Positions 12,153-52,261 of a stretch of DNA of 57,524 nucleotides are shown one piece after another. The position numbers and the translations under genes are program-made. Source of the stretch: Nostoc sp. LEGE 12450 (GTDB taxonomy: Bacteria; Cyanobacteriota; Cyanobacteriia; Cyanobacteriales; Nostocaceae). The notes under the pieces are model-generated. The model saw only the letters and a program-made list of their open reading frames with translations. It searched no databases and was not told the origin of the DNA. Location of the stretch: positions 1-57,524 of the forward strand of contig NZ_JADEXU010000037.1 of the NCBI RefSeq assembly GCF_015206895.1, read 5' to 3'. Each line of letters opens with the position of its first letter. The stretch's first letter is position 1.

Positions 12153-12488
12153 ATGTATCAACAAGTAGACAACCGAGAAGAAAATTCCTCTAGTTTTTCT
12201 TTCATTGAACCTGGCTGCCAGAATATTTGCAGTATAATGGATACTCTGAAGTCGATACTTCTGAACCTTGGTATTCCAGAAGATTCAATTAGTGAAGACA
12301 CCTTACTGCACAAGGATTTGCAACTTGATTCTGTAGAGGCGGTAGAAATAGCATTGGGATTGAAACGGATACTGGGAGTAAATGTGAAGCTAGAGTCTCG
12401 ACAGGATATGACATTAGCTCAAGTCTGCAATAGAGTCAAAGAAGCGATCGCCCAAAATACTACCAACCATGTTATACCAACAGATTAA
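12153..12488 (+). CDS. Stand-alone acyl/aryl carrier protein
   Basis: Carrier protein of 111 residues from the ATG at 12153, which follows AAGGTG at a good distance. The longer frame from 12102 lacks such a site, and a later ATG at 12237 is also possible. The phosphopantetheine attachment motif is LQLDSVEAVEIALGL with Ser60, and the rest fits a four-helix carrier fold (TLKSILLNLGIPEDSI, LAQVCNRVKEAI). It is the first gene of the cluster. It overlaps by 20 bp an AcpS-type transferase that could convert it to holo form, and is followed by an aryl activating enzyme and salicylate synthase. I infer it carries the salicyl starter to the Cy domain of the first NRPS, because that NRPS has no N-terminal ArCP of its own. 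Confidence 0.85.
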   Translation: MYQQVDNREENSSSFSFIEPGCQNICSIMDTLKSILLNLGIPEDSISEDTLLHKDLQLDSVEAVEIALGLKRILGVNVKLESRQDMTLAQVCNRVKEAIAQNTTNHVIPTD

Positions 12489-12849
12489 AGGGTTAGGTCT
12501 AGATATCACCCCCATTCACAGAATTGCCAGACTTGTTGATAGGTATGACAGTGAAACCTTAAATCTGTTATTCACTGCTAACGAGATCGACCATTGCCAA
12601 TCAGCTAACAACTATCATCAATATTATGCAATCTGCTTTGCCACCAAAGAAGCTGTAGGCAAGGCCCTAAGCACTGGATTGGTCGGCATTGACTGGAATG
12701 AAATTGAAGCCGAAATCACACTTGATAACCTAATTATTCATCTATACGGTAAAGCAAGCCATCAAGCAAAAAAACTTAAGATTCAAAAGTGGGTGGCTAA
12801 TTGGTGTAATTGGGATCAACACGTATTAGTTCAAGTCCTTGCTTTCTAA
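12469..12849 (+). CDS. AcpS-type 4'-phosphopantetheinyl transferase
   Basis: A 126-residue enzyme of the holo-ACP synthase type, which moves phosphopantetheine from CoA to the Ser of a carrier protein. Both family motifs are intact: GLGLDITPI with Asp12 and CFATKEAVGKAL with Lys60-Glu61, the latter providing a magnesium ligand. The length fits the roughly 120-residue AcpS family. It overlaps the end of the carrier protein gene (12469-12488), so translation is probably coupled. NRPS and PKS carriers are usually served by the larger Sfp type, so a dedicated AcpS type inside the cluster is unusual. A second AcpS-like gene lies at 15806. Which carriers each acts on cannot be told from sequence. 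Confidence 0.85.
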   Translation: MLYQQIKGLGLDITPIHRIARLVDRYDSETLNLLFTANEIDHCQSANNYHQYYAICFATKEAVGKALSTGLVGIDWNEIEAEITLDNLIIHLYGKASHQAKKLKIQKWVANWCNWDQHVLVQVLAF

Positions 12850-12886
12850 AGGATCAGAAAGAGGCAGAGAGCAGAGGAAAAATCTA

Positions 12887-14422
12887 ATGACTATGATTTC
12901 TGAACAGTTACCCGATATTTTTAACATTGCAGCTTACTTTATAGAAGGTAACTTTACACAGGGACGAAGCGAGAAAATCGCCTTTTATTATCAGAATCAA
13001 ACATATACTTATGCACAAGTTAGCGGCTTTGTTCGGCGTAGTGCTAGATTATTCGCTAACCTTGGTCTAGAACAGGAAAACCGCATAGCAATTCTACTAC
13101 CCGATTCTCCAGAGTTTGTATTTGGCTTTTGGGGCGCAATTTGGCTAGGAGCAGTACCAGTTCCCATTAATACAACTTGTAGCCTAGATGAGATTCAATA
13201 TATTCTGCAAGATTCTCGCGCCAAACTTTTATTAACTACCAAAGAGTGGCAAGAAAAACTAACTCCTATCCAATCACAATCCTTACGTCATCTGCTGTTA
13301 AAAGATGGAGAGTCTGCTTATCTTTCACTCTTAAACCAACAAGATGAATTACTATCTTGTGCCAAAACTTCTGCCGATGAACCAGCTTTCTGGCTATACA
13401 CATCTGGTAGTACAGGCCGCCCCAAAGGAGTGATTCACCTACATCAAAGTATGGTGGTTTGTGCAGAAAGATATGGTAAAGCAACTCTAGGTTTGCGCCA
13501 AGATGACATCACCTATTCGGTGGCGAAAATGTCCTTTGCCTATGGTTTGGGCAATACCTTATATATGCCAATGGCAGTAGGCGCAGCTAGTGTGTTATCT
13601 GATGCAAGTAACGCCTTCGACATTATTACAGATATTCAGCATTATCGACCGACAATTTTATTTGGTATACCCAGTGTTTATGCAGGTATTCTGGCTCTTT
13701 CAGAAATCGCACCGCTAGATGTTTCTTCCTTGCGGTTGTGTGCATCTGCGGCTGAACAACTACCCAAGAGTATTTGGCATCAATGGTTAGAGACACACAA
13801 CCATGAAATTTGCGAAGGAATTGGCACTACTGAGTTTTTGCATATATTTCTCTCCAATCAAATAGGAGAGTGTAAACCAGGAAGTTCTGGTCGTCCCATT
13901 CCTGGTTATGACGTGCAAATTATTGATGACAATGGTTTACCTTGTCCTCCTGGTGAAATTGGAAATCTCCAAGTTACAGGAGAAAGCCTGATGTGGGGTT
14001 ATTGGAAGCGGCTACAACAAACCCGCCAAGTGATTTACGGCGACACAATGCGAACTGGAGATAAATATCTGCGGGATGCTGATGGTTATTTCTACTTTAT
14101 GGGACGCAATGACGACTTGTTTAAAGTCAATGGTCAGTGGATCTCACCAATGGAAATTGAGGATATATTACATCAACATCCCCAAATTCTAGAGGTGGCT
14201 GTTGTACCTGAGTCTAGTAATGAAGAACAATTAACGCAGATTGTGGCTTATATCAGTCTCAAACCTGGACACCCAGCTACACCAGAAATTGAAATAAATA
14301 TTCGGAAATTTGCTAAACAACAATTGCCGCATTTTAAAGCCCCCAAAATAGTCTATTTTGTGGAGAAATTACCGCGCACTTCAACCGGAAAAATTCACCG
14401 CAGATTATTAAGTAAAAATTAA
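12887..14422 (+). CDS. Benzoate-CoA-ligase-type aryl acid activating enzyme
   Basis: Adenylate-forming enzyme of 511 residues. The ATG at 12887 is preceded by AGAGGA; the frame also extends upstream to a TTG at 12839, which I reject. Core motifs are YTSGSTGRPKGVIH, GIGTTEFLH, TGDKYLRDADGYFYFMGR and the C-terminal lysine region LPRTSTGKIHRR. The segment MSFAYGLGNTLYMPMAVGA and the overall pattern are those of the benzoate-CoA ligase family (TIGR02262 type), not the DhbE/PchD family of salicyl- or dihydroxybenzoyl-AMP ligases. With salicylate synthase as the next gene, the likely substrate is salicylate, loaded as an acyl-adenylate onto CoA or directly onto the stand-alone carrier protein. Confidence 0.88.
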   Translation: MTMISEQLPDIFNIAAYFIEGNFTQGRSEKIAFYYQNQTYTYAQVSGFVRRSARLFANLGLEQENRIAILLPDSPEFVFGFWGAIWLGAVPVPINTTCSLDEIQYILQDSRAKLLLTTKEWQEKLTPIQSQSLRHLLLKDGESAYLSLLNQQDELLSCAKTSADEPAFWLYTSGSTGRPKGVIHLHQSMVVCAERYGKATLGLRQDDITYSVAKMSFAYGLGNTLYMPMAVGAASVLSDASNAFDIITDIQHYRPTILFGIPSVYAGILALSEIAPLDVSSLRLCASAAEQLPKSIWHQWLETHNHEICEGIGTTEFLHIFLSNQIGECKPGSSGRPIPGYDVQIIDDNGLPCPPGEIGNLQVTGESLMWGYWKRLQQTRQVIYGDTMRTGDKYLRDADGYFYFMGRNDDLFKVNGQWISPMEIEDILHQHPQILEVAVVPESSNEEQLTQIVAYISLKPGHPATPEIEINIRKFAKQQLPHFKAPKIVYFVEKLPRTSTGKIHRRLLSKN

Positions 14423-14471
14423 AGTTTACTTGCAGTTATAAGTTTTTAAAAAAAATCCCAACCGAGGCAGA

Positions 14472-15806
14472 ATGATGGTAATAGAGTTTCAGACAGCAAT
14501 CAAATACAAACGTAAATTTATTCCTGGACGAAGGAATCATATTGTAGCTTTGCAGAATTTTCTGCAAGCTGGGATTTTCGATAATTATGTTTTGTATGAA
14601 GGTAAAAATGAAGTTCGGATTGCTGGAAATGAGTTAGCGAAAGTATCAGTTTCTCAAGATTTAGTTTCTCTTAAAGGTTTAGGTAAATCTTATTCAGAAC
14701 CAGCAAAGGAGCCATTTAAACAAATAGAAAAAATGTTGGCGACATTGCCGATTGAAGATTGGACAGCTTATGGCTATGTTGCTTTTGATATGGCTCGGTT
14801 CTATTCGGATTATTCTAAATCAATACAGCAAGACAGCCTGTATTTTTTAATTCCAGAGATTGAACTGATATTTACAAATGAAGGCGTTTGCATCAGAAGT
14901 ACAAAGTCTCTAGAACAGATAGAAGAAATTTTACTTTTAGATTATAAATTACCAGATTATCAACCTGCTGATTTGAAATTAGATTTTGGCGATCGCACCA
15001 ATTATCAGCAAAAAATTGCCCAGTTAATCACAGCTATTCAAAAAGACGAATTGCAAAAAGCAATTATCTCTCGCTCTGTGAAAATTCCTGGCAGTTTAGA
15101 TATATTGGGAACATATATAGTCGGTTCTAGAGTTAATAACTCTGCTCGTTCTTATTGTTTAAATATCGGAGATATCCGCGCAGTTGGCTTTAGTCCTGAA
15201 ACCCTGATGGAAGTTTACGAAGATGGTTTTATTGTGACTAATCCCCTAGCAGGGACTCGTCCACGCAATCAAAATCAAGCAGAAGATTTACAACTAACTC
15301 ATGAACTATTTACTGATGCGAAAGAAGTAAAAGAACACGCACTTTCTATCTGGTTAGCCCAGAGTGAGATTGCTGCACTTTGTTTAGCGGGAAGTATTCA
15401 GGTGTTCAATTTCATGGAAGTGAAAAAATATCGCTGCGTGCAACATTTATCATCGAGAGTTGGTGGACAACTACAACCAGGAAAAACCTTGTGGGATGCG
15501 TTGAAAGTTTTGTTTCCAGGGATTACCGTTTCGGGAATTGATAAACAACAAGCTCTCAAATGGATTGATCGTTTAGAAGACGAACCGAGAGGAATTTATG
15601 CTGGCGGTATTGGTTGGGTAAGTAGTAGTGGTACAGGAGATTTAGCGATCGCTATTCGCTCTGTTTACCAGTATGGTAATCATATTTACTTAAATGCTGG
15701 TGCTGGCATTGTTGCCGAATCAGTACCAGAAAAAGAGTATATCGAGTCCGTCAATAAGATGAATACCATGTTAACTAATCTAGTGTTGGAAACTGAAGAA
15801 AGATAA
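14472..15806 (+). CDS. Salicylate synthase (chorismate-utilising, MbtI/Irp9-like)
   Basis: A 444-residue member of the chorismate-binding family that converts chorismate via isochorismate to salicylate. The catalytic base region is LQKAIISRSVKIP with Lys196. The substrate region GFSPETLMEV contains Glu243, and NPLAGTRPR has Thr262, the residue that separates isochorismate-forming enzymes from anthranilate synthases. C-terminal motifs include HLSSRVGGQL, GITVSGIDKQQA, GIYAGGIGW and the AGAGIVAESVPEKEY metal-binding stretch. No amidotransferase partner is nearby. No separate isochorismate pyruvate-lyase gene is present, which favours the single-enzyme MbtI/Irp9 type over PchA. A GAGG ribosome site lies before the paired ATGs at 14472/14475. 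It supplies the starter of the cluster. Plain isochorismate synthase remains a possible alternative. Confidence 0.85.
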   Translation: MMVIEFQTAIKYKRKFIPGRRNHIVALQNFLQAGIFDNYVLYEGKNEVRIAGNELAKVSVSQDLVSLKGLGKSYSEPAKEPFKQIEKMLATLPIEDWTAYGYVAFDMARFYSDYSKSIQQDSLYFLIPEIELIFTNEGVCIRSTKSLEQIEEILLLDYKLPDYQPADLKLDFGDRTNYQQKIAQLITAIQKDELQKAIISRSVKIPGSLDILGTYIVGSRVNNSARSYCLNIGDIRAVGFSPETLMEVYEDGFIVTNPLAGTRPRNQNQAEDLQLTHELFTDAKEVKEHALSIWLAQSEIAALCLAGSIQVFNFMEVKKYRCVQHLSSRVGGQLQPGKTLWDALKVLFPGITVSGIDKQQALKWIDRLEDEPRGIYAGGIGWVSSSGTGDLAIAIRSVYQYGNHIYLNAGAGIVAESVPEKEYIESVNKMNTMLTNLVLETEER

Positions 15807-16225
15807 TGGCATCAACCTGTATAGATATACTGGCTTTACCTAATACCTCAAATATCATCGGTTATGGCATAGAAATAGTTGCGACTGTTGATATTGCAAC
15901 CCTCATAGAACAAGCAGGGGAAGATTTTGGATTGCAATACTTTACAGCTAGTGAGTGGAGTATGGCTAATGGAATGAGGCGCATCCAGTATCTTGCAGGT
16001 CGTTTCTGTGCTAAAAAAGCAATTCTGAAAGCCTTGGGAATGGAATTAAATCAGAAGACTTTTTGGTTGGATATTGAAGTACAGCGATTACCCACAGGTC
16101 AACCATCAGTAGTATTGCATGGTCAATGTCACGAATTTGCCGATCGCTTAGGGATTGGTAAATGGTTGTTGAGCATTAGTCATGTATCTGATTATGCCGC
16201 AGCTAGTGCGATCGCTGTTTTGTAA
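15806..16225 (+). CDS. Second AcpS-like protein with altered metal-binding residues
   Basis: A 139-residue protein of the holo-ACP synthase fold, overlapping the salicylate synthase stop (TAATG). The first motif reads GYGIEIVATVD, with Glu23 where AcpS has Asp. The second reads RFCAKKAILKALG, with Lys71 where the family has the magnesium-binding Glu (KEA). The C-terminal WLLSISHVSDYAAASAIA is normal for AcpS. The fold is recognisable but the KEA-to-KKA change would be expected to weaken or abolish classical activity, so this may be a specialised or non-catalytic partner of the KASIII-ACP protein encoded next. The canonical AcpS at 12469 could serve the cluster alone. The reading is intact and no frameshift is visible. 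Confidence 0.8.
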   Translation: MASTCIDILALPNTSNIIGYGIEIVATVDIATLIEQAGEDFGLQYFTASEWSMANGMRRIQYLAGRFCAKKAILKALGMELNQKTFWLDIEVQRLPTGQPSVVLHGQCHEFADRLGIGKWLLSISHVSDYAAASAIAVL

Positions 16226-16251: not shown

Positions 16252-17745
16252 ATGATGAATGATTCAATCGGTATTCGCTCACTTGCAGTCAGCTTTGGTA
16301 GGATTATCCGCACAAATGAGTATTGGGTAAAGAAGTTTTCGGAAGTAATTCAGCAAGAAAAGCCGAGAAGAGTCAGACTGTCTCCTTCTAGTGAATCAAC
16401 TTCTAATTCAAATGTTCTAGATATTTGGTCGCAAGCTGTAGCACCTTATTTAGCAGATCCGTTTCGGGGTAATGTCGAGCGACGGATAGTTGATACCGAT
16501 GAATCTTCGCTGACTTTAGAATATCGAGCGGCTAAAGATGCGTTGAATGCTGCACAACTCTCTCCCCAAGAAGTCGATTTGATGATTGTAGCTTCTCTGT
16601 TTCCTGAACAGGTTGGACATGGTAATGCGGTTTATCTGGCTCAGGAATTAGGATTGCACTGTCCGGCTTGGAATTTAGAATCAACCTGCTCTAGTGCTTT
16701 AGTAGCTTTGCAAAACGCTCATGCACTTATTCAAACAGGAGCATATCGCAACGCCTTAGTTGTCGTCTCTCACATTGGTTCTCAAACAGTAGACGAAGCA
16801 GATAGTCTCTCTTGGTCAATGGGTGACGCTGCTGGAGCTTTTGTAGTAGATAGGCTGAAACCAAATCAAGGAATCTTAGCTAGTAAAATCGTCAGTACGG
16901 CTGCAACCAGTGGTGCTTATGTGCATGAATTGCTCACCAATAGCCAAGGACAGCCTCAAATACGAACTCGCACAGGTGAGAATGTTAGTACATTAGCCGA
17001 AACTTCTGTAGATTTTGTGCGTACCTGCTGCAAAGGTGCAGTGGCGGCGGCTGGAGTAACTTTAGCTGATATCGATTTTTTTGCATTCAACACGCCTACT
17101 GCTTGGTATGCCGATGTTTGTACCCAAGCATTAGGGATTAGTGCAGAAAAAACTATCAACCTTTATCCTCGATACGCAAATATTGGCCCAGTATTGGCGA
17201 TCGCTAATTTATATCATGCTGCCCATGAGTGTAAAATTAACAAAAATAACTTAGTTTTAGTTTATACCAAGGGTGCATCAGCCACTGCTGCGGCAACTAT
17301 CATGCGCTGGGGTGATGTCGCACTTGGTTCAGTTCCTGCTCCTCCTTTAAGCCTTACCCCAGAACCAGAAAAGATTTATTTAACAGAAAGACAAAAAAGC
17401 AGCATCTCCAGAGAAAAACTTTTGGCTGCTTCTGTGCAAGAACAACAACAAATGCTGCAAACCTATCTCTTGGAATGGTTGAGTCACTCATTACAGCTTT
17501 CTGTATTGCAAATTAATCAAGAGCAACCATTAGCTTTATTGCTTGACTCTCTGATGGGTTTTTTATTCAAAACTCAAATAGAAAATGATTTGCAAGTACG
17601 GGTTCCCATAGAGAAATTCTTTGGTGAAAATAATCTTAATCATTTAATTGAATGGTTGCTCAATCAGTTAGCCTTAGTCAAAGTTTTAGCATCTACTTCA
17701 GTAGTTAACGCTGAGATTGAAGAAAGAGAAAAATTGAGCCTTTAA
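16252..17745 (+). CDS. KASIII-like acyltransferase fused to an ACP domain
   Basis: A 497-residue two-domain protein. Residues 1-360 form a FabH/KASIII-type thiolase fold with the nucleophile Cys146 in ESTCSSALVAL and the usual Asn310 in YPRYANIGP. The His of the classical PHQAN motif is replaced by Asn280 (FAFNTPTAW). Residues 395-475 are a carrier domain with Ser433 in ALLLDSLMGFLFK. KASIII relatives without the full Cys-His-Asn triad often transfer acyl groups and do not perform decarboxylative condensation. It lies between the salicylate genes and the first NRPS, so it may move a salicyl (or other acyl) group from CoA to a carrier. The exact reaction is unknown. The start may be the second ATG at 16255. 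Confidence 0.82.
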   Translation: MMNDSIGIRSLAVSFGRIIRTNEYWVKKFSEVIQQEKPRRVRLSPSSESTSNSNVLDIWSQAVAPYLADPFRGNVERRIVDTDESSLTLEYRAAKDALNAAQLSPQEVDLMIVASLFPEQVGHGNAVYLAQELGLHCPAWNLESTCSSALVALQNAHALIQTGAYRNALVVVSHIGSQTVDEADSLSWSMGDAAGAFVVDRLKPNQGILASKIVSTAATSGAYVHELLTNSQGQPQIRTRTGENVSTLAETSVDFVRTCCKGAVAAAGVTLADIDFFAFNTPTAWYADVCTQALGISAEKTINLYPRYANIGPVLAIANLYHAAHECKINKNNLVLVYTKGASATAAATIMRWGDVALGSVPAPPLSLTPEPEKIYLTERQKSSISREKLLAASVQEQQQMLQTYLLEWLSHSLQLSVLQINQEQPLALLLDSLMGFLFKTQIENDLQVRVPIEKFFGENNLNHLIEWLLNQLALVKVLASTSVVNAEIEEREKLSL

Positions 17746-17792: not shown

Positions 17793-20700
17793 ATGAATTT
17801 ACACTCACTTTTAACCGATTTATCCCATCAAGGCATAAAATTATCTGCTAATGGCAACTTACTAGATATTGATGCGCCGAAGGGAGTAATTACGCCAGAA
17901 ATACGTAATTCATTAGCGAAATATAAAGCTGAATTATTAGCATTACTCCAAGACAACGGTACAAGTCTCACCTCTCTCCCAACAATTACGCCAGCGCCAG
18001 AGTTGCGCTATGAGCCTTTTCCACTGACTGATATGCAGTATGCCTTTTGGGTAGGACGCAGTGGCGTACTTGAGTTGGGGAATGTTGCTAATCACGGTTA
18101 TTACGAAATTGAATGTAAGTATTTACATTTAGAAAAATTGAATTTGGCGCTACAAAAAATTATCGATCGCCACGATATGCTTAGGGCTGTAGTCTTACCA
18201 AACGGACAACAGCAAATTTTAGAGCAAGTACCTTTCTATACTATTGAAGTTTTAGATTTAAGAGGAAAAGCTGAAGACATTGCCAATGCTGAACTAGATG
18301 CAGTGCGTCAGAGGATGTCTCATCAGGTGATTCCGAGCGATCGCTGGCCTTTATTTGAGTTTAGAGTCACACGTTTAGCAGAAGAGAGTTTTCGGTTACA
18401 CGTTAGTTTCGATTTGCAAATATTTGATGCTTGGAGTTTGTTTCGGTTATTTGACGAATGGTTTCAACTTTACCAGCATCCAGAGGAATCATTACCACCC
18501 TTAGAAATTTCCTTCCGGGATTATGTTTTGGCAGAACAAAGCATAGAACAAACAGAATTTTACAAGCGATCGCAAGCATATTGGTTAAATCGCCTGGATG
18601 ACTTACCACCAGCCCCAGATTTACCATTGGCTAAAAGTCCTAAAGAAATCACACATCACCAAAACAAGCGTTATGAAGGGCGGTTAGAATCAACACAATG
18701 GCAGCAGTTAAAGCAACGCGCTGCTAATGTTGGGTTAACTCCCTCTGGTGTTTTACTGGCTGCTTTTGCAGAAATATTGACTTTATGGAGCAAAAGCTCC
18801 CAATTTACGCTGAATCTTGCCTTATTTAATCGGCTACCATTGCACCCCCAAGTCAACGATATTTTAGGGGACTTTACCTCTGTTACTTTATTAGCCGTAG
18901 ATAATGCTCATTCTGAATCATTTACACAGCGATCGCGCCGCCTCCAACAACAACTATTCCAAGATTTAGAACATCGCTATATCAGTGGCGTGCGCGTCAT
19001 CCGGGAACTTGCCCGCAGACAGGGTACAGCACCCAGCGCCATGCCAGTTATCTTTACTAGCACCCTCGGCTTTAGTTCCCTTGGGCAAGAAACCTTAACC
19101 TTTAGTCATTTTGGTGAGTTAGTTTACGGTATTAGTCAAGCTTCTCAAGCTTGGATGGATATTCAAGTTTGGGAAGAAAAAGAAACTTTAACCTGCAATT
19201 GGGATGTAGTAGAAGAACTATTCCCAGAAGGATTAATTAGCGATATGTTTGAGGCTTATTTTTATTTACTCAAACAACTAGCTACTTCCGAATCAGCTTG
19301 GTTGGAAACAAATAAACAACTAATTCCTCCTCCACAATTAGCACAACGCCATAATATTAATGCAACAGCCGTAACCACACCCGAAGAAACGCTGCACACA
19401 ATGTTTGCCGCTCAAGCACAGCAGTGTGGAACAGCACCAGCCGTCATTTCTTCCCAGCGTACTCTAACTTACCAAGAGTTATACACACTTTCCAATCAAC
19501 TAGGTTATAAACTGCGACGACTGGGGGCTACTCCTAACCAATTGATCGGCGTAGTCATGGAGAAGGGATGGGAGCAAATTGTTACTGTTATGGGGATTTT
19601 AGCTTCCGGTGCGGCTTATGTACCCATAGATCCTGGATTGCCAAAACAGCGAAGAGAATATCTACTAGCAAATAGTGAAGTCAAGATTGTTTTGACCCAA
19701 TCTTGGTTAAATGAAAAATTAGAGTGGCCGTCAGGAATTCAACGTTTGTGTATAGATACAGAAGAACTAGCAAACGAAAGTGACGAGCCACTACAACCAG
19801 CCCAAACACCTGATGATTTAGCCTACGTCATTTACACCTCTGGTTCTACCGGCTTACCCAAAGGCGTGATGATTAGCCATCGCAACGTTGTTAACGTCGT
19901 TGTCCACACTAACCAACGCTTCAATATTGGTTGCCAAGATAGAATTTTGGCTGTGACGGCTTTAAACCATGATTTGTCTGTATATGACATCTTTGGTTTG
20001 TTATGTGCAGGTGGGGCAATTGTTATACTTGATGCTTGTGGTGTTAAAGACCCGACGCACTGGGCAGAGTTGATGATACGGGAAAAAGTGACTCTGTGGA
20101 ATTCTGTACCCGCAATTATGCAGATGTTGGTGGAATATGCAGAAAGTCAATCTGTAACGATACCTGCAAGCTTGCGTTTGGTAATTATGGGTGGCGATTG
20201 GCTGCCGGTGTCTCTCCCTAACCGCCTCAAAACTTTAGTACCAGATGTAGAAATATTGAGTATTGGCGGCCCTACAGAAACAACCATTTGGAATATTGGT
20301 TATTTAATTACAGAGGTTGATCCAAATTGGAAGAGTATTCCTTATGGAAAACCGATGGCTAATGCCAAATACTACATTTTGAACGAAGCTTTAGAAGATT
20401 GTCCCGTTTGGGTTCCTGGTCAAATGTATTGTGCTGGCGTGCAGGTTGCTCAAGGCTATTGGTGTGATGCCGAAAAGACTGTGGCTAAATTTATTACCCA
20501 TCCTCGCACCCAAGAACGTATTTACTGCACAGGCGATCTTGGTCGTTATTTACCCAATGGCAACATTGAATTTTTAGGCAGGGCAGATTTCCAGGTCAAA
20601 ATCAGGGGCTATCGCATCGAATTAGGTGAAATTGAAGCAACTATCAAACAGCATCCAGGGGTAAAAGATGCGATCGCTGTTACACTACCAGGAGCCGAAC

Positions 20701-38657: not shown

Positions 38658-38782
38658 AAGATTTGAAAAATACCCTTCCCTAATGAAAATAGGTAATTAA
38701 ATACCATTCTGCAAGAAAGAGAGGGGTAGAAAAAATCAGAGTATTAACAAAATATTTAGAAAACTGCGTAAAGCTTAGTTTG

Positions 38783-44900: not shown

Positions 44901-46019
44901 CCAATAAATAATCTAATTACTGGAAAATTAAATAAATCTTTCATTACAGCTAGAACCTTTACAGAATTAGCTTTAGTAAAAATCTGGGAACAACTTCTCA
45001 ACACTAGCCCCATTGGGATTACAGATAACTTTTTTGACTTAGGCGGACATTCATTTTTGGCTGTACGCTTAATGGCACAAATTTATGAGCTATTTGGGCA
45101 TAATCTGAGCCTATCTACCCTTTTTGAAAATACAACAATTGAAAAACTTGCCAAAATTGTTAGTCAACCAGCAAGCTTAGGTGCAAATTCTTCTTTGGTA
45201 GGAATTCAACCTTCTGGTTCCTATCGTCCATTTTTCTGTGTCCACGCAGCCGGAGGAGATGTTAACAACTATCTGATTCTATCGAAAAAATTAGGTAGAG
45301 AACAACCCTTTTACGCTCTAGAACAAACCCATCATCAGCAAGAATTAAATCATTTTTCTATAGAAGAAACAGCAGCTTACTACCTCAAAGAAATTCGTAC
45401 TGTCCAGCCTCATGGGCCTTATCTTTTAGGAGGTTGGTGTTATGGTGGCATCATCGCCTTTGAAATAGCACAACAACTCCAAAGACAAAATGAAATTGTT
45501 GATTTACTAGTGGTAATTGATGCAATATTGCCCAAAACTATCATTCAGCCAAGCAAAGATGATGATGCTAAATTAGTCTTACGTTTAGCTGAAGCTATTA
45601 AAAACTGGTTCAATATAGAATTTGCAGTTTCCTATCATGAAATGCAAGATTTACCGCTAGATGAGCAGTTCCATTTATTATTTAGCAAAGCTAATCTCAA
45701 AATTAGTGATGCAGAAATGGAACAACATCTGCAAAGTTATAAGCTTTTCAAAGTCCATATCCAAGCTATGCGGAATTATGTCCCGCAGACTTATCCCCAT
45801 GAAATTACATTATTCAAAGCCAGTGAAATAATTACCCACGACTTTGAAAGCCAAGAATTTCATACAGATGATCCGTTATTGGGTTGGGGTAAATATTCTC
45901 AAAAACCCATCAACATGATAGAGATTCCCGGTAATCACTTTTCTATCTTTAATGAACCTTACGTTCAAGAATTAGCCAGTCAATTAAAACAATCTCTCAT
46001 TCATGCTCAAAAATTATAA
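41946..46019 (+). CDS. Terminal NRPS C-A(beta-Ala-like)-PCP-TE with Cys thioesterase
   Basis: A 1,357-residue terminal module. The C domain has an intact HHIITDGWS near residue 168. The A domain (YVIYTSGSTGTPKG near 640) has pocket residues read as V-D-W-L-I-S-L-A-N, again of the beta-alanine type with Val in place of the usual anchoring Asp. The PCP has LGGHSFLA near 1033. The type I thioesterase begins FFCVHAAGGDVNNY, and its nucleophile motif is LLGGWCYGGIIAF. The GxSxG serine is Cys1165 (TGT at 45438-45440). The C-terminal catalytic His is probably in GNHFSIF. It should release the finished chain by hydrolysis or cyclisation; Cys thioesterases such as that of obafluorin synthetase are known to make strained products. 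It is the last assembly-line gene. Confidence 0.9.
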   Translation: MDNSTLSPAKKALLEKWKKGKFKTETIPQHQTSQPIPLSFSQQRLWFIDQLYHGSSFYHVTSALHLTGLLNVPALQQSLNEIIRRHEVWRTIFVTGDKQPIQIVVPELAWELPIINIKHLSNKDWEKEVKQIAIKEAQKTFDLAHAPLVRASLLRLSEVEIILLLTIHHIITDGWSMGVFAQELATLYAAFCAGKPSPLAELPIQYADFSIWQRDRLQGELLNTQLNYWKQQLAGKLPILQLPTDYPRSAVATFKGAKKYFSLSPQLTAALTELSQQEGCTLFMTLLAAFNTLLYRYTTQEDILVGFSIANRNRAELEGLLGLFVNNLVLRNNLSGNPSFRELLSRVREVTLNAYAHQDLPFEKLVEELQPERDLSRNPLFQVMFILQNAPIPVEEFADLTLQNLEIDHGTSEFDITVSISESSQELTGFWEYNTDLFDAATIQRFIENFQILLESIVLNPHQSISELPLLTITEQEQLLIEWNNTHVNYPDASLHQLFEQQVERFPDALALISQSERLTYQQLNQKVNQLAHYLIKLGVTTETIVAICLERSVEMIVAILAILKAGGAYLPLDPHYPVERLQFMLADSQVSLMMSHTSLMNRWKEVTAIALDTDWDTIQQESQENPLSTSEGNNLAYVIYTSGSTGTPKGVLGTHSGTVNGLHWLWKAHPFALGEICCQKTATSFVDSVWEIFTPLLQGVPTVIIPDAIAKDPQLFLETLANYKVSRLLVVPSLLRLLLDNYAHLTQNLSHLKLWIASGEALTVDLVKTFQQLLPKAKLINLYGSSEVSANVTYYDTSLLNEKSTTVPIGKPINNTQIYVLDNHLQLVPIGVVGELYIGGDGLAQSYLHRPELTQARFIDNPFLPKSHIFKTGDLVRYKNNGQLEYFGRNDDQIKIRGFRVELGEIATAIAQYPSVQNSVVISHYDAQGDKCLIAYVATAEKEIIPQLQAYLQQKLPNFMVPSAFVLLDEIPLTPNGKVDKQALPINNLITGKLNKSFITARTFTELALVKIWEQLLNTSPIGITDNFFDLGGHSFLAVRLMAQIYELFGHNLSLSTLFENTTIEKLAKIVSQPASLGANSSLVGIQPSGSYRPFFCVHAAGGDVNNYLILSKKLGREQPFYALEQTHHQQELNHFSIEETAAYYLKEIRTVQPHGPYLLGGWCYGGIIAFEIAQQLQRQNEIVDLLVVIDAILPKTIIQPSKDDDAKLVLRLAEAIKNWFNIEFAVSYHEMQDLPLDEQFHLLFSKANLKISDAEMEQHLQSYKLFKVHIQAMRNYVPQTYPHEITLFKASEIITHDFESQEFHTDDPLLGWGKYSQKPINMIEIPGNHFSIFNEPYVQELASQLKQSLIHAQKL

Positions 46020-46062: not shown

Positions 46063-47436
46063 ATGAAAATTCCTGAAGTAAGCATTCCTCTCTGGCTAAA
46101 CATTCTTAAAATAGCCAACGACCCTCTAAATCATCTTGATGTGATCGCTAAAAAATATGGTGATATTTTCATTATTAACTTTGGTGAAACACCGATAGTA
46201 TTTGTTAGCGAACCGCAAGCAATTAAACAAATTTTTACCAATACAAAAGATATTAAAACTCCTGGTGAATTAAACGCCGAGATGGCGTTAATTACTGGCA
46301 ACCAAGGTATATTGCAACTCGATGGTTTACGTCACAAACATCGACGCAAATTAATGATGCCAGCTTTTCACGGTGTGAAAATGCAAACCCAAGGTAAGCT
46401 AATTTGCAACCTGACAAAAAAAGTCATGGATGAATATTTAGCCAGCAAAACCTTCATTGCCTATCCCACTGTTGAAGAGATTACCTTACAAGTCAGCATG
46501 GAAGTTGTCTTGGGCTTACGCGAAGGAGAACGCTATGAAAAACTTAAGCACCTACTTCCCACCATACTCAAGAGTATGCGATCGCCCATCATGCAAATTA
46601 CCTCCTTTCTTCCTTTTCTGCAAAAAGATTTAGGAAAATGGAGTCCGTGGGGATATCTCATGTACCTCCGGCAAGAAATTTTTCAACTGCTTTACGCCGA
46701 AGTTCAAGAACGTCGCCAACAAGCAGACACCTCCCGCACCGATATCTTATCCGAGTTGATATTTGCTCATGATGAGATGGGTGAACTGATGACAGATGAA
46801 GAAGTCCGTGACTTGTTACTCTCACCCTTATTTGCGGCTCAAGATGCTTCTGCTGTAGCTATCACCTGGTTATTGTATTGGGTTCATCACCTACCTCAAG
46901 TTCGTGAACAACTGCTGCAAGAACTTACTAGCCTTGGTGACTCACCTGATCCCATGAGTATTGTGCAACTTCCTTATCTGAGTGCTGTTTGTAACGAAGT
47001 CCTGCGGATTTACCCGGCTCAATTATTCACATTTCCCCGCCGAATCGAATCATCAACTGAATTGATGGGCTATGAATTGAGTGCAGGAACCCTAGTTATG
47101 GGCTGTATCTATCTCACCCATCAACGTCCAGATTTATACCCGCAACCAAAACAATTCCAAGCAGAACGATTTCTGGCAAAACAATACACCCCTTACGAAT
47201 TTTTTCCCTTTGGCGGTGGCGCTCGGGGCTGTATTGGCGCAGCTTTAGCCGTATTTGAAATGAAACTGATATTAGCAACTATACTCTCAAACTATCAACT
47301 CACACTAGGCACAAAACAACCAGAACAACCGAAATTTGAAGGTCTAATGTGCTATCCAGCTAGTGGTGTCAAAATGCACATCTCAACAAAAACTCCCCGC
47401 ACCTCTACGGAAACCACTGCGCCCCTCTGTGTTTAA
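46063..47436 (+). CDS. Cytochrome P450, CYP110-like (first of a pair)
   Basis: A 457-residue heme monooxygenase without a membrane anchor. The heme-binding loop is FFPFGGGARGCIGAALA with Cys390, the K-helix ExxR is in CNEVLRIYP, and the I-helix reads AAQDASAVAITW where the usual motif is AGxDTT. The N-terminus and general pattern suit CYP110, a cyanobacterial family often found in natural-product clusters. It lies 43 bp after the NRPS-TE gene, so it probably oxidises the assembly-line product or a bound intermediate. The last residues (TPRTSTETTAPLCV) are encoded by dispersed-repeat-like sequence. Substrate unknown. Confidence 0.88.
   Translation: MKIPEVSIPLWLNILKIANDPLNHLDVIAKKYGDIFIINFGETPIVFVSEPQAIKQIFTNTKDIKTPGELNAEMALITGNQGILQLDGLRHKHRRKLMMPAFHGVKMQTQGKLICNLTKKVMDEYLASKTFIAYPTVEEITLQVSMEVVLGLREGERYEKLKHLLPTILKSMRSPIMQITSFLPFLQKDLGKWSPWGYLMYLRQEIFQLLYAEVQERRQQADTSRTDILSELIFAHDEMGELMTDEEVRDLLLSPLFAAQDASAVAITWLLYWVHHLPQVREQLLQELTSLGDSPDPMSIVQLPYLSAVCNEVLRIYPAQLFTFPRRIESSTELMGYELSAGTLVMGCIYLTHQRPDLYPQPKQFQAERFLAKQYTPYEFFPFGGGARGCIGAALAVFEMKLILATILSNYQLTLGTKQPEQPKFEGLMCYPASGVKMHISTKTPRTSTETTAPLCV
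47397..47434. repeat. Dispersed repeat read into the P450 C-terminus
   Basis: CCGCACCTCTACGGAAACCA followed by CTGCGCCCCTCTGTG resembles the junction repeat family and is translated as the last dozen residues of the first P450. Confidence 0.45.
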
Positions 47437-47450: not shown

Positions 47451-48821
47451 ATGAACCTACCTCAAGGCCCAAAATTCCCCGCTTGGTGGTTGAAAATGCA
47501 ATTTTCCGCCGATCCCCTGAGTTTTCTGGATAAAATGAACCAACGCTATGGTGATATTTTCACCATTATGTCTGAATCTACACCCCTAATATTTGTGGGC
47601 AATCCCCAGGGGATAAAGCAGATTTTTACCAATCCAGAAATTATTGCCTCTGGCGAGTTGAACGCAGAATCAGCGCCATTGGTGGGGAAAAATGGATTAC
47701 TTCTGCTCGATGGTGTACGTCACAGATCCCGACGCAAACTGCTGATGTCTTCTTTGCACGGTAATAATATCAGAGCCTACGGACAGCAAATTTGTGACGT
47801 GACAGAAAAAGTCATGAATCAGCTACCCATTGGTAAATCTTTTTTAGCTTACCCAACCATGCAAAAGATTACCCTTGAGGTAATTTTAAATACTTTGTTT
47901 GGCTTACATGAGGGCGATCGCTACGAGCAACTTAAACACCTGCTGACGAATTTAATGAATTATGCGCGATCGCCCTTTGTGGAAATCCCCTTATCCTTCC
48001 CCTTCTTGCAACAAGATTTAGGGCGATGGAGTCCTTGGGGTTACTTTCGTGATTTGTGGCGACAATTTGATCAACTGATTTATGCCGAAATTAGCGATCG
48101 TCGTCAGCAATCAAACCCTGATGCTAATGATGTGCTTTCCGAACTAATCTTTGCTCGCAACGAAACGGGTGAATTGTTAACGAATGAAGAAATACGCGAT
48201 TTATTTCCTTCATTATTATTCGGTGGTCGAGATGCTTCGGCAACTGCAATCACTTGGGCGTTGTACTGGGTTCACCGTCAGCCACAAGTCCGCGAAAAAT
48301 TACTCAAAGAAATCAACAGCCTGGGTGAATCTCCCGACCCAATAAGCATTGTTAAACTCCCTTACCTCAATGCTGTGTGTAATGAAATATTGCGGATTTA
48401 TCCAACTCAAGTGGTGACATTTCCCAGAATAGTCGAATCACCAACCAATCTCATAGGCTATAACTTAAGCCCCGGAGCCATCATCATTGGCTGTATTTAT
48501 TTGACCCATCAAAATCCAGAATTATACCCACAACCGCAGCAATTTCAACCAGAACGTTTTTTAGATAAACAATACTCTCCCTACGAGTTTATGCCTTTTG
48601 GTGGCGGTGCTCGTCGTTGTCCTGGAGAAGCCTTAGCTTTGTTTGAAATGAAACTAGTTCTGTCCACAATTCTTTCAGGTTATCAATTAGCACTGACTAA
48701 TACTAAGAGAGAAAAACCTCAACCACAAGGCGCTAACTATCCTCCAGCTAGCGGATTGAAGATGGTATTATGCCAAATTCAGGAATATAAAGAACAACTG
48801 CAAGAGGCGGGACTCTGTTAA
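47451..48821 (+). CDS. Cytochrome P450, CYP110-like (second of a pair)
   Basis: A 456-residue P450 14 bp downstream of, and clearly paralogous to, the first. The heme loop is FMPFGGGARRCPGEALA with Cys390, the K-helix ExxR is in CNEILRIYP, and the I-helix reads FGGRDASATAITW. The two proteins align almost without gaps and have their heme Cys at the same residue number, so they arose by tandem duplication, yet they differ at many positions and around the heme (CIGA against CPGE). They may act on different sites of the product or form one pathway-specific oxidation step with relaxed selection on the other. Substrate unknown. Confidence 0.88.
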   Translation: MNLPQGPKFPAWWLKMQFSADPLSFLDKMNQRYGDIFTIMSESTPLIFVGNPQGIKQIFTNPEIIASGELNAESAPLVGKNGLLLLDGVRHRSRRKLLMSSLHGNNIRAYGQQICDVTEKVMNQLPIGKSFLAYPTMQKITLEVILNTLFGLHEGDRYEQLKHLLTNLMNYARSPFVEIPLSFPFLQQDLGRWSPWGYFRDLWRQFDQLIYAEISDRRQQSNPDANDVLSELIFARNETGELLTNEEIRDLFPSLLFGGRDASATAITWALYWVHRQPQVREKLLKEINSLGESPDPISIVKLPYLNAVCNEILRIYPTQVVTFPRIVESPTNLIGYNLSPGAIIIGCIYLTHQNPELYPQPQQFQPERFLDKQYSPYEFMPFGGGARRCPGEALALFEMKLVLSTILSGYQLALTNTKREKPQPQGANYPPASGLKMVLCQIQEYKEQLQEAGLC

Positions 48822-48951
48822 ACATTTATGTACTAAATGGAGCTTTTGATGCAAGTTTTATGCAATTATAAAAATTACAAACACTTGATTTTTGGCTGGC
48901 AAAAAATCAAACTCTCAGATGGCATATTAACTTACAAATTAGCAGCTAATT

Positions 48952-50328
48952 ATGACTACAGAACCAAGATCAAAAGTTACTAATGAAATACTCAATGGAA
49001 ATTTATTTCAATTGATGGTAAAATTCACTATTCCCGGTATTTTAGGAATGCTATTAATTGGTTTTAATAGTTTCCTAGATGCATTATTTGCTGGACAACT
49101 AATTGGTGAAACTGCATTAGCAGGCATATCTTTAGCCGTACCCCTTACTTCTATTGTGATTGGTTGCGCTCATTTAGTAGGAGTAGGTTCTGCCTCAGTT
49201 CTCAGTCGGGCAATTGGTTCAGAAGATACCAGAACCAAGTCGAGAATTTTTGGCACTTTAGTAATTATGAGTGTGATTATTGCTTTTTTTATCACTCTTT
49301 TAGGTTACTTTTTTAGCGATACATTAATTGCATTCATGGGAGGAGAAGGGGCGGTAGCATCGGCTGGTACAGAGTATTTTAGAATTTACACATCAGGCTC
49401 AGTATTTTATATTTTAGCAGTTGCTTCGAGTCAGTTGATCAAATCAGAAGGCAAAATTCCCCTAGCCATGATTTTTTCAGGTATTTTTGCAGTTCTTGAT
49501 GCTATTTTAAATCCTATATTTATTAGTGTCTTTAATTTGGGTATTGGAGGAGTAGCATTTTCGACAGTTATTTCTATGTTGGTTTATAGTATTTTAAATA
49601 TTAGCTATTTTCTCTCTAATAAAAGTTCCATTCCTGTTAATTTAAAAAAAATGACTCTGGCATTAGATTTACTCCCAGCAATTTTATCGGTAGGATTAAC
49701 CGCTCTATTGATGGAAATTATTAGCTTAGTAGAACAGTCTGTAATTTTTAAATCTATTGCTCAATATGGAACTGAACATGATATTGCGCTTGCTGGTGCA
49801 ACCTTAAGAATATATGCCTTAGCATTTATTCCTGTAGAAGGTTTTGTGCAAGCCTTACAGCCAGTAGTTGGCATCAACTATGGCGCAAAGAAATATCACC
49901 GAATCAAGCAAGCATTTGTCACATTTAGTATTGCTGCCACATTGTGCTTAGGATTGATTTGGTTGCCTTTACACATATTTCCAACAACATTTTTGAGAAT
50001 TTTATTGCCAAATGTTATTTTTAGTAATGATGATTTATTTAACTTTCAAATTGTAAATTTACTGCTGCTGATATTACCTTTAGGATTTTGTAGTGTGACC
50101 TTATTTCAATCACTGGGCAATGGGAAGGCAGCAGGCTTCTTGATTCTCTCCAAAACTCTTTTCTTTCTCATTCCTTTTGTACTTATATTATCTTCATTTT
50201 TAGGCGTTAGGGGTGTGTATTATGGAATGTTATTAACCGATAGTTTAGTAGTCTTAATTTCTTTAGTAATCACTTACTTAGAGTTTAAAAAACTTGGTAT
50301 TCAAACTAAAACTGCATACGATAATTAG
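48952..50328 (+). CDS. MATE-family efflux transporter
   Basis: A 458-residue inner-membrane protein with about 12 transmembrane segments arranged in two halves. The halves begin MVKFTIPGILGMLLIGFNSFLDALF and ALAFIPVEGFVQALQPVVGINYG; the latter holds the conserved QALQPVVGxNYGA motif of the MATE family. MATE proteins export small, often cationic molecules using sodium or proton gradients. Directly after the tailoring P450s, and with the MFS importer on the other side of the locus, it is the likely exporter of the cluster product. Export polarity and substrate are inferred from context. Confidence 0.88.
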   Translation: MTTEPRSKVTNEILNGNLFQLMVKFTIPGILGMLLIGFNSFLDALFAGQLIGETALAGISLAVPLTSIVIGCAHLVGVGSASVLSRAIGSEDTRTKSRIFGTLVIMSVIIAFFITLLGYFFSDTLIAFMGGEGAVASAGTEYFRIYTSGSVFYILAVASSQLIKSEGKIPLAMIFSGIFAVLDAILNPIFISVFNLGIGGVAFSTVISMLVYSILNISYFLSNKSSIPVNLKKMTLALDLLPAILSVGLTALLMEIISLVEQSVIFKSIAQYGTEHDIALAGATLRIYALAFIPVEGFVQALQPVVGINYGAKKYHRIKQAFVTFSIAATLCLGLIWLPLHIFPTTFLRILLPNVIFSNDDLFNFQIVNLLLLILPLGFCSVTLFQSLGNGKAAGFLILSKTLFFLIPFVLILSSFLGVRGVYYGMLLTDSLVVLISLVITYLEFKKLGIQTKTAYDN

Positions 50329-50336
50329 AAAAATTA

Positions 50337-51209
50337 ATGAACCAAAAAAGTAAAGGTGCTGTAGTCATTACAGGAGCATCTACGGGAGTCGGTAGAGCAA
50401 CTGCACTCTTGTTAGATAAACAAGGATATCAAGTGTTTGCGGTAGTTCGTCAATCAAAAGATGGTGAATTAATCAAGTTAAATTCATCAGGTAATTTAAC
50501 ACCAATTATCTTTGATGTGACAAAAATAGAACAAATTAAATCTGCCGCAGAAATTGTCGCATCAGCAGTTGGTGAAAAAGGATTGTTGGGATTAATCAAT
50601 AATGCTGGCATATTAGTAGATGGCCCCCTGGAATATCTGTCACTAGATGAACTAAGATGGCAATTTGAAGTTAATGTCATTGGACAAGTAGCTGTTACTC
50701 AAACTTTTTTACCAATGATTCGACAAGCCAAGGGGCGAATTATTAATATTGGCTCTGTTTCTGGCAAAATTTCTTCACCATTTTTCTCGGCTTTGTGTGC
50801 TTCTAAGTTTGCTTTAGAAGCATTAAATGATGCTTTAAGGATGGAATTACATCCTTGGGGAATTGAAGTAATTTTAATTGAACCAGGTTCCATTGCTTCT
50901 ACAGCACCAGACAAAGTAGAAGTGAGTTTGCAAAAAAAATTAGCTAATATGTCGCCTACTGCTAAGGCGATGTATGGTGATATTTACAAGTTTTCCCTAG
51001 AGCAGTTAATTAAGTCTAATCGGATGGGAATGCTACCGGAAGAAGTTGCAAGTGTGATTCAAAAAGCTTTAGAAACTATAAAACCGAAAACGCGTTATTT
51101 TGTATCTAAAGAAAAATTAATGTTGAGTTTTCTCATGCTTTTGGCCAAGATTCTCCCAGATAGGGTTTGTGATGCAATTCAACTCCAAGAATTGGAATTA
51201 AAAAATTAG
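50337..51209 (+). CDS. SDR-family oxidoreductase lacking the catalytic Tyr
   Basis: A 290-residue short-chain dehydrogenase/reductase, 8 bp after the MATE gene. The nucleotide site TGASTGVGRATAL and the NNAG motif (88-91) are intact, as are Ser140 in IINIGSVSG and Lys157. The catalytic Tyr position of the YxxxK motif is Leu153 (SALCASKFALEAL; TTG codon). The protein otherwise looks like the retinol-dehydrogenase-like branch of classical SDRs. Without the Tyr, normal ketone reduction is doubtful. It may bind NAD(P)H for another role, use another proton donor, or be losing function. Its position suggests tailoring of the polyketide-derived keto group or self-protection, but neither is shown. 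Confidence 0.82.
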   Translation: MNQKSKGAVVITGASTGVGRATALLLDKQGYQVFAVVRQSKDGELIKLNSSGNLTPIIFDVTKIEQIKSAAEIVASAVGEKGLLGLINNAGILVDGPLEYLSLDELRWQFEVNVIGQVAVTQTFLPMIRQAKGRIINIGSVSGKISSPFFSALCASKFALEALNDALRMELHPWGIEVILIEPGSIASTAPDKVEVSLQKKLANMSPTAKAMYGDIYKFSLEQLIKSNRMGMLPEEVASVIQKALETIKPKTRYFVSKEKLMLSFLMLLAKILPDRVCDAIQLQELELKN

Positions 51210-51223
51210 TAGTGAGGTTAGTT

Positions 51224-52261
51224 GTGACTGTATCAGAATCTATATATGCACCCAGTAATACACCATTTCAAATGACGGCAATGGAATGGATACACGCTTA
51301 CTGGATGTCGCGGTGTGTTTACGTAGTGGCTAAACTTGGGATTGCAGATTTACTTCAAGACGGCCCTCAATATTGTGATGAGTTAGCAACTGTTACTAAT
51401 ATCCAGAGTGATGCACTTTATCGGATATTGCGAGCTTTAGCGAGTGTTGGCATTTTTGCAGAGATTAAACCGCGTTATTTTGGGCTAACTCCACTAGCAG
51501 ATAATTTACAAAGTAACCACCCAGAGTCGGTTCGGGCTATGGCAATTTTACGGGGTGAACAGCATTATTACAAAGCTTGGGGCGACTTGATGTACAGTTT
51601 ACAGACTGGAGAAAGTGCCTTTGAGCGTTTGTATGGCATGAATTTGTTTCAGTACAATGACCAAGATTCTACCCAAGGTGAAATTTTTGACCGCGCAATG
51701 GCAGAGTCCCAAGAGGAAAATTCCTTGGTTTTAGAGGTTTATGATTTTTCATCTATTGGGAAGTTGGTTGATATTGGTGGCGGTAAAGGGCACTTACTGT
51801 CTACCGTTCTCCAAGCCTACCCTAGTATGACAGGGATACTATTCGACCGCCCAGATGTAGTTGAGCGTGCTAAAAACTCCTGGGATTTAGCTTTGAGGAA
51901 TCGCTGCGAATTTATCGGGGGAAGTTTTTTTGAGACTATTCCTACAGAAGGAGATGCTTATATTCTCAAGCATATCATTCAAGACTGGGACGATGAGCGA
52001 TCGCTAGCTATTCTCCAACGCTGCCATCAAGCCATGAAAGCACAAGACCGATTGTTGGTAATAGACTTTGTAATTCCACCAGGAAACGAGTTTTATGGGA
52101 GTAAATTTATAGACGTAAATATGTTGGTTATGTGTCCTGGTGGGCGCATTCGTACAGAAGAAGAATTTCAAGCACTATTTAAAGCCGCAGGGTTCAGAAT
52201 AAGTAAAATTATCCCAACTGAATCGGAGGTGAGTATTATTGAAGTAGTTAAAACTCTGTAG
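51224..52261 (+). CDS. SAM-dependent O-methyltransferase (Methyltransf_2 type)
   Basis: A small-molecule O-methyltransferase of about 345 residues. I prefer the GTG at 51224, which has AGTGAGGT just upstream; an in-frame GTG at 51212 is also possible. An N-terminal winged-helix dimerisation domain (MSRCVYVVAKLGIADLLQDG) precedes the catalytic domain with the SAM motif KLVDIGGGKGHLL. The stretch YILKHIIQDWDDERS holds the catalytic His, as in hydroxyindole/caffeate-type enzymes. It is the last gene of the long plus-strand array. Candidate targets are the salicyl phenol or a hydroxyl placed by the P450s or the JmjC enzyme; methylating the salicyl phenol would weaken metal binding. The target is not known. 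Confidence 0.87.
   Translation: MTVSESIYAPSNTPFQMTAMEWIHAYWMSRCVYVVAKLGIADLLQDGPQYCDELATVTNIQSDALYRILRALASVGIFAEIKPRYFGLTPLADNLQSNHPESVRAMAILRGEQHYYKAWGDLMYSLQTGESAFERLYGMNLFQYNDQDSTQGEIFDRAMAESQEENSLVLEVYDFSSIGKLVDIGGGKGHLLSTVLQAYPSMTGILFDRPDVVERAKNSWDLALRNRCEFIGGSFFETIPTEGDAYILKHIIQDWDDERSLAILQRCHQAMKAQDRLLVIDFVIPPGNEFYGSKFIDVNMLVMCPGGRIRTEEEFQALFKAAGFRISKIIPTESEVSIIEVVKTL

Follow-up and report, generated by a model that had tools for sequence, protein, structure and literature searches.

Which compound would a cyanobacterium make with a salicylate synthase placed ahead of a mixed peptide and polyketide assembly line, and does a described pathway already account for it? The question is raised by contig NZ_JADEXU010000037.1 of Nostoc sp. 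LEGE 12450, whose 57,524 nucleotides are here called the window (locus G000:C295 in an assembly of 8.8 Mb and 415 contigs). Positions 7595-52261 of the window (~45 kb) hold a divergent pair of permease and TonB-dependent receptor genes followed by 20 plus-strand genes (12102-52261), in the order of Table 1, among them modules of non-ribosomal peptide synthetases (NRPS) and a polyketide synthase (PKS). A preliminary description had read these genes as an undescribed salicylate-capped metallophore cluster. We estimate a probability of about 0.68 that the cluster is an NRPS/PKS line for a phenolate-thiazoline metallophore, with the predicted backbone salicyl-(C-methyl)thiazoline-D-Orn-L-Dab-beta-Ala-malonyl-beta-Ala (Orn, ornithine; Dab, diaminobutyrate), which would be exported by the MATE-family protein and taken back through the TonB receptor.

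Profile searches and motifs placed every element named in that description where it had been located, and the account was right in substance. The salicylate synthase, the aryl-activating ligase and the TonB receptor score above their model cut-offs (Table 1), the first module carries DLQIFD where condensation (C) domains have HHxxxDG, and the two cytochromes P450 have the heme-Cys motifs FGGGARGCIG and FGGGARRCPG; the beta-alanine-type modules surround a malonyl PKS with no KR, DH or ER among its Pfam hits, and the terminal module has a Cys thioesterase (TE). Features of salicyl-capped peptide metallophores are therefore present (salicylate synthase, a cyclisation (Cy) domain with a Cys-type adenylation (A) domain, and a TonB siderophore receptor), which supports the assignment to a cyanobacterial cluster of this type. 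The colinear prediction was close and needed refinement: the module proposed to add D-Dab or D-Orn has the expected C-A-PCP-E domains with an Orn-type code, so that residue 2 is read as D-Orn and not D-Dab, and the following residue, left as X, is now Dab-type. Missing from the description were the free-standing C, JmjC/Cupin_8, EctB and PanP genes, together with the half-length C domain at the start of 30962-36928.

The pathway would begin with the conversion of chorismate to salicylate by the salicylate synthase, which the CoA-ligase-type enzyme would activate onto the stand-alone acyl carrier protein (ACP), and the KAS III-ACP protein would aid acyl transfer to module 1, where Cys would be condensed, heterocyclised and C-methylated. 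Module 2 would add and epimerise Orn, after which L-Dab made by EctB would be coupled in trans by the free-standing C domain onto the module with a C-lobe only, with possible hydroxylation around this step by the JmjC enzyme. Module 4 would add beta-Ala supplied by PanP, and one unreduced malonyl extension would give a beta-keto amide. Once the second beta-Ala is in place, the Cys thioesterase would free the chain as an acid or ring, with tailoring by the two P450s, the SDR oxidoreductase and the O-methyltransferase. For the line of the window, the linear acid before any modification would have the formula C28H41N7O8S and [M+H]+ 636.2810 (618.2704 after loss of water, 622.2654 if the C-methyl is missing), with a salicyl-methylthiazoline acylium fragment at 220.0427; in Plectonema radiosum NIES-515, which has a different module 2 code, the predicted mass would shift by that residue and the 220.0427 fragment would be retained.

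Starter cassette and described pathways

Gene for gene, the seven starter genes follow the order FatB-FatH of the fatuamide A cluster (fat) of Leptolyngbya sp., which reads ACP-phosphopantetheinyl transferase-benzoate-CoA-ligase-type enzyme-salicylate synthase-holo-ACP-synthase-like protein-KAS III-Cy-A(Cys)-P and gives a salicyl-thiazoline cap (PMC11877528; sources cited by PMC number are represented here by excerpts). Because of this match the starter half is already known, and the earlier word "undescribed" holds for the remainder, which was found in no described pathway of the open-licence full-text literature, the leptochelin cluster and MIBiG entries lying outside this comparison. Within the same scope, the claim that no described pathway has this module order stood.

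The KAS III-like protein of the window keeps the Cys and Asn of the catalytic triad and has Asn in place of His. Across 27 such sequences, Cys and Asn are kept in all and His is replaced by Asn in 26. With the condensing His lost, acyl transfer is more likely than extension, and transfer rather than condensation is the expected role of this protein. Relatives occur in 19 of 386 genomes sampled from the phylum (E <= 1e-60, the window's genome counted). A second relative (53%), without a carrier domain, lies elsewhere in the window's genome (G000:C329:20592-21680), and in Plectonema radiosum NIES-515 (L007) and genome G353 the fused carrier domain reads LLLGSL, not LLLDSL, with the Ser kept.

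The module 1 code, DLYNIGIIWK, is close to DLYNLSLIWK, given for Cys (PMC12283262), and is therefore read as Cys. The S-adenosylmethionine (SAM) motif of its embedded methyltransferase (MT) domain, LEIGAGTG, is intact, and all seven structure matches under 1e-5 are methyltransferases or synthases containing them, the C-methyltransferase (cMT) of CurJ being the best. A PchE-like embedded epimerase in place of the MT was considered and rejected, given the intact SAM motif; no PchE chain is among the matches listed, an absence that is weak evidence. In Nostoc sp. CHAB 5844 (G001) this MT has been replaced, with 32-68% identity over residues 901-1400 versus 85-96% before and 89% after. Module 1 of genome G570 (L050-L051) is found in two open frames (residues 1-640 and 639-1541) with ~1 kb between them, and this copy may be interrupted.

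Among described systems, pyochelin and yersiniabactin have the salicylate cap, Cy domains and an MT embedded in the A domain of a Cys module, but they contain several thiazoline/thiazolidine rings and no Dab or beta-Ala modules. In fatuamide, FatH has no MT, unlike module 1 here, and the Cys module is followed by two cMT-bearing reducing PKS modules, Phe, Phe and Gly (PMC11877528), whereas C-A(Orn-type)-PCP-E follows it in the window; the fatuamide passages name no Dab, EctB, PanP, beta-Ala modules or paired P450s, all of which are present here. Lusichelin (lus) of Lusitaniella coriacea, whose product binds iron and copper, shares the salicylate synthase, a Cy-A(Cys) with cMT, a type I TE and a TonB receptor, but its excerpted cluster has four Cys modules interspersed with PKS genes and no Dab or beta-Ala (PMC12210259), against one Cys-type code among five here. 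Cyanochelin B (ccs) of Leptolyngbya sp. NIES-3755 shares the methylthiazoline from a Cy/MT Cys module and differs in its FAAL/PKS acyl starter, its Asp(OH)-Ser-Asp(OH)-ethanolamine end and its reductase release (PMC12628792). Its beta-hydroxy-Asp ligands set it apart as well (the preliminary description had named hydroxyaspartate as the difference): the five codes here include no Asp-type one, and the sole oxygenase beside the modules is of the JmjC type.

The diaminobutyrate step and the beta-alanine tail

The module 3 code, DIWEMVADDK (DIWE..DDK in 29 of 29 loci), matches DIWELTADDK, which we take to be the code for Dab, and those of modules 4 and 5, VDWVVSLADK and VDWLISLANK, match VDWVISLADK, presumably the code for beta-Ala; neither reference code was found in print in the open-licence full-text literature. 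Both readings are independently supported by adjoining genes, since an EctB-type aminotransferase gene lies directly before module 3 and a PanP-type decarboxylase gene directly after module 4.

The Dab step is divided between a free-standing C domain and a module with the C-lobe alone, an arrangement seen in all 20 further loci selected. The half-length C domain is kept in each of these cassettes at 39-50% identity (one matched over residues 111-250 only), a confident fold match places it on the C-lobe of C-A didomains, and together with its A domain it superposes on PvdL C3-A3 among others, with solely NRPS-type A or C-A folds among the best 50 matches listed. A JmjC gene is present in 10 of the 20 cassettes. 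In the free-standing C domain, which occurs at >=88% in 7 of 217 genomes of the family (the window's included), Met replaces the second His of HHxxxDG (HMIIVDG), whereas a relative such as that of G499 bears the His. No publication describing a half-length C domain alongside a free-standing one in cyanobacteria was found in the open-licence literature, as far as its excerpts go.

A similar step is known from pyoverdine PvdL (E2-C3-A3; PDB 9up2/9lco-9lcq), which adds D-Tyr and then L-Dab (PMC6206403) in a pathway that includes a Dab aminotransferase; as in PvdL, an epimerisation (E) domain here would make a D-residue ahead of a C domain and an A domain of Dab type, by the code presumed above. 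PvdL has one full C domain fused to A, with paired His in the alignment, whereas the window has a free-standing C domain without an intact HHxxxDG and a module with the C-lobe only. Interface domains of siderophore beta-hydroxylases, reportedly defined by Reitz et al. in 2019, are said to be C-like domains without HHxxxDG that precede an A domain and adjoin a free-standing oxygenase gene. The half-length C domain before A and the JmjC gene are reminiscent of this definition, but only a C-lobe is left here, and the oxygenase is JmjC-type and found in just half of the cassettes.

Downstream, the module 5 code reads VDW[LVI]ISLANK and the TE motif GGWC[YF]GG in all nine orthologues and named relatives compared, and the codes of modules 1, 3 and 4 are identical in the four clusters compared; the GGWCYGG of the window indicates a Cys nucleophile. 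The terminal PKS/C-A-PCP-TE unit is also found more widely in cyanobacteria. Among 388 genomes of the order, 15 hold at least 17 further loci whose terminal module aligns almost end to end at 63-69% identity, below which identity drops to 50%; the count is a lower bound because two candidates per genome were scored, and genomes G349 and G612 seem to duplicate G003 and G004. Within 20 kb of 16 such loci lie a related PKS (15), a related P450 (13) and PanP (7), and a TonB receptor accompanies those of G180, G516 and G185. The pattern GGW[CS]xGG found no match in the thioesterase of 13 of the 16, and Cys is thus not established for the whole family. At G180 (L098-L099, L085), a FAAL start, methoxymalonyl-type genes, a TauD oxygenase gene followed by a full-length degenerate C-like domain, the Dab unit and the same tail stand beside a TonB siderophore receptor, which makes this locus a further undescribed metallophore-like cluster.

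Related clusters and the exchange at module 2

Seven further clusters share the gene order, which recurs at 69-97% protein identity in six genomes (G001, NIES-515 or G002, G353, G570, G399 and G566) and at 54-81% in the seventh (G556), so that a chance arrangement is unlikely. G353 belongs to the same family as the window's genome, and the cluster of G566 is cut by a contig end and begins inside module 1. G556 (L057-L059) keeps module 1 to the O-methyltransferase at 60-81% and the receptor at 54%, and has neither a JmjC gene nor an E domain; three PKS genes stand where the salicylate cassette would be, which amounts to a natural swap of starter on the same assembly line. A receptor relative heads all six further clusters for which the fetched sequence extends to this point, with permease relatives beside it in G002, G570 and G399; in G001 (L022) the receptor is 5.8 kb from the ACP gene, not directly divergent. 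The terminal C-A-PCP-TE gene of G566 (L056) lies in three overlapping frames, through assembly error or decay.

The relatives differ most sharply at the A domain of module 2, predicted to choose the second amino acid, and four codes occur among the eight clusters: DVGEVGSIDK in the window and G570, DVENIGAVTK in G001 and G399 (alignment-based letters, uncertain by one position at residue 278), DVYYLGGICK in G002, G353 and G566, and DILQLGLIWK in G556. The code of the window is read as Orn because it is one change from DVGEIGSIDK, itself read as Orn (PMC3992020), while the Gly-like code of G556 (DILQLGMIWK is listed for Gly, PMC12283262) and its missing E domain are consistent with a glycine module. 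Over residues 1-500 of the module 2 protein, the five close clusters with another code match the window at 76-98% identity (G556 at 54-82%), and over residues 701-850 identity is 14-37% in these six clusters versus 94-98% in G570, which has the same code. The segment exchanged across the family, as these alignments delimit it, is the A-core (roughly residues 600-900). Cyanobacterial NRPSs are known to diversify in large part by A-core exchange (PMC8097286), and what appears to be new here is the fixation of such exchange on one residue of a predicted metallophore. Because residue 2 varies and the codes for Cys, Dab and the second beta-Ala are constant, this residue probably serves as a spacer and not as a ligand.

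Regarding the donor of the module 2 A-core, no recent internal copy was found in the window's own assembly, where the best other A domains reach 44-45% and one 45-residue piece is 76% identical. Co-variation of receptor and residue 2 was not seen among five receptors compared, far too few to conclude: in 50-residue blocks, the receptor of G002 is the most like that of the window from residue 201 on (84-98%) despite a different module 2 code, and that of G570 is 70-88% identical despite the same code.

Weighing the readings, gene content and significance

Several points weigh against a metallophore pathway of this kind. The proposed RhtX/FptX-like permease is present, but its likeness is loose and it falls under every specific cut-off (TIGR02718 166.4 bits, cut-off 356.15; the AmpG-type MFS model 2A0125 is higher, 222.3, cut-off 350), and no permease match lies beside the receptor in the fetched region of G353. 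No Fur box stood out in seven promoter stretches scored against the Escherichia coli consensus, the best matches being equalled by 11-91% of 300 single-base shuffles per stretch. Lacking the second His, the free-standing C domain may not be the condensing enzyme; the Dab and beta-Ala readings depend on presumed codes and gene context; the Cys thioesterase is compatible with more than one form of release; and many salicyl-thiazoline or G556-like relatives are putative metal binders.

It is very unlikely that the cluster encodes an already described cyanobacterial metallophore of the fatuamide, lusichelin, cyanochelin or leptochelin type. The fatB-fatH order of its starter cassette would fit, as would the salicylate-derived unit that leptochelins carry on a thiazoline or oxazoline ring (PMC11877528), yet fatuamide, lusichelin and cyanochelin B, as excerpted, all come without the combination of Dab and beta-Ala-malonyl-beta-Ala. 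Less remote, and still unlikely, is that the line makes, instead of an iron siderophore, a chelator of copper or zinc or a compound for metal detoxification or antagonism, and that the receptor serves another metal complex. The receptor is well above the TIGR01783 siderophore-receptor cut-off, and the predicted donors (phenolate, thiazoline N and beta-keto amide) generally suit Fe(III), which speaks for iron; copper or zinc would agree with the Fur result and with the preferences of products with a similar cap, since fatuamide prefers copper (PMC11877528) and lusichelin C binds iron and copper (PMC12210259).

Similar caution applies to two steps of the line itself. The free-standing and half-length C domains could be relics of one C domain split by gene insertion, the latter being a non-functional stub, and the half-length domain does evolve faster than its A domain among orthologues (68-85% over residues 1-300 versus 79-96% over residues 301-800); its retention in every further cassette and its confident fold nevertheless make decay improbable. 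As for release, the Cys thioesterase might close the beta-ketoacyl-beta-Ala thioester by Dieckmann attack; the resulting 3-acyl-piperidine-2,4-dione, once O-methylated or oxidised, would make the C-terminus a second bidentate ligand. Cys thioesterases that cyclise in this manner exist, each of the nine terminal modules with the Cys motif follows an unreduced malonyl module and has a beta-Ala-type A domain, and O-methyltransferase, SDR and P450 genes come next in the orthologues. This ring closure is nonetheless doubtful: the best solved match, AB3403 (4zxh), likewise shows GGWCFGG when aligned and is not known to us to act by Dieckmann closure, the excerpted open-licence literature holds no direct precedent for such thioesterases, and most wider relatives do not match the pattern.

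Table 1. Genes of the predicted metallophore cluster in the window.
Feature	Position	Strand	Evidence or remark
MFS permease, loosely RhtX/FptX-like; predicted metallophore uptake	7595..8875	-	NCBIfam scores below cut-off
TonB-dependent siderophore receptor, N-terminal AMIN domain	8909..11533	-	TIGR01783 408.2 bits, cut-off 223.5
Stand-alone ACP, motif LQLDSVE	12102..12488	+	same place as FatB
AcpS-like phosphopantetheinyl transferase 1	12469..12849	+	same place as FatC
Aryl-CoA/AMP ligase, benzoate-CoA ligase family; predicted salicylate activation	12839..14422	+	TIGR02262 491.6 bits, cut-off 375.25; FatD place
Salicylate synthase	14472..15806	+	TIGR03494 330.1 bits, cut-off 325.15; FatE place
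AcpS-like phosphopantetheinyl transferase 2	15806..16225	+	same place as FatF
KAS III-like protein with fused carrier domain (KAS III-ACP); predicted non-condensing acyl shuttle	16252..17745	+	same place as FatG
NRPS module 1: TubC_N dock-Cy-A (DLYNIGIIWK, Cys-type)-embedded MT (C-MT-like)-PCP	17793..22418	+	domains, motifs, code
NRPS module 2: TubC_N dock-C-A (DVGEVGSIDK, Orn-type)-PCP-E	22415..27202	+	domains, code
Free-standing condensation domain; HHxxxDG reads HMIIVDG	27199..28611	+	domain and motif
Cupin_8/JmjC oxygenase; predicted side-chain hydroxylase	28713..29594	+	HxD...H (PLHFD, TLHHV); JMJD5 nearest solved relative
EctB-type diaminobutyrate-2-oxoglutarate aminotransferase; predicted Dab supply	29633..30886	+	TIGR02407 569.1 bits, cut-off 552.2
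NRPS modules 3+4: C-lobe only (residues 1-250)-A (DIWEMVADDK, Dab-type)-PCP-C-A (VDWVVSLADK, beta-Ala-type)-PCP	30962..36928	+	
PanP-type aspartate 1-decarboxylase; predicted beta-alanine supply	37002..38657	+	TIGR03799 604.4 bits, just under cut-off 606.1
PKS module KS-AT(malonyl)-ACP	38780..41893	+	Pfam domains; AT motifs GHSIGEY, SHAFHS
NRPS module 5: C-A (VDWLISLANK, beta-Ala-type)-PCP-TE, active-site Cys	41946..46019	+	TE motif GGWCYGG
Cytochrome P450 a	46063..47436	+	heme-Cys motif
Cytochrome P450 b	47451..48821	+	heme-Cys motif; 57-59% like P450 a in orthologues
MATE-family exporter	48952..50328	+	profile match
SDR oxidoreductase	50337..51209	+	profile match
Methyltransf_2-type O-methyltransferase	51212..52261	+	profile match

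The true start of the stand-alone ACP gene is probably nearer 12237 than 12102. A motif on both sides of the divergent promoter, ACTTGCAAWATA, was tried and dismissed, with 29 matches in the window versus 23.1 +/- 5.2 expected and as many in 17 of 100 shuffles. Two IS701-type copies in the same orientation (~1448-2909 and 52760-54229, the open frame of the second, 385 aa, being shorter than that of the first, 446 aa) flank the cluster region; a composite transposon was rejected, since the copies are only 84% identical in DNA, which makes a recent joint move unlikely. Upstream of the cluster lie a Cadherin-like/Big_9/RTX-repeat protein (3005-5116) that adjoins FG-GAP proteins, and a 435-aa open frame (5579-6886), transposase-like by eye, with no Pfam or NCBIfam match.

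Several of the orthologue-bearing strains are isolates from culture collections, and the prediction is thus testable; for four of the orthologue strain names no paper was found in the open-licence literature. A wider picture, which we put forward tentatively and consider rather unlikely as a whole, is that cyanobacteria share an undescribed mix-and-match metallophore family, in which a two-protein Dab unit (its C domain often without the catalytic His) possibly closes a PvdL-like cyclic amidine, a Cys thioesterase cyclises the tail into an acyl-piperidinedione ligand, and natural A-core exchange brings variety to residue 2 around a constant set of chelating parts.

Few cyanobacterial metallophores are known, and the predicted product would combine a salicyl-thiazoline cap with a tail unmatched in the pathways found. 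The two-protein Dab unit raises the question of what a functioning condensation domain requires. Moreover, the eight related clusters amount to a natural experiment in which one residue of an assembly line has been changed through A-core exchange, and such exchange bears on NRPS re-engineering and on whether siderophore variation tracks the receptor.

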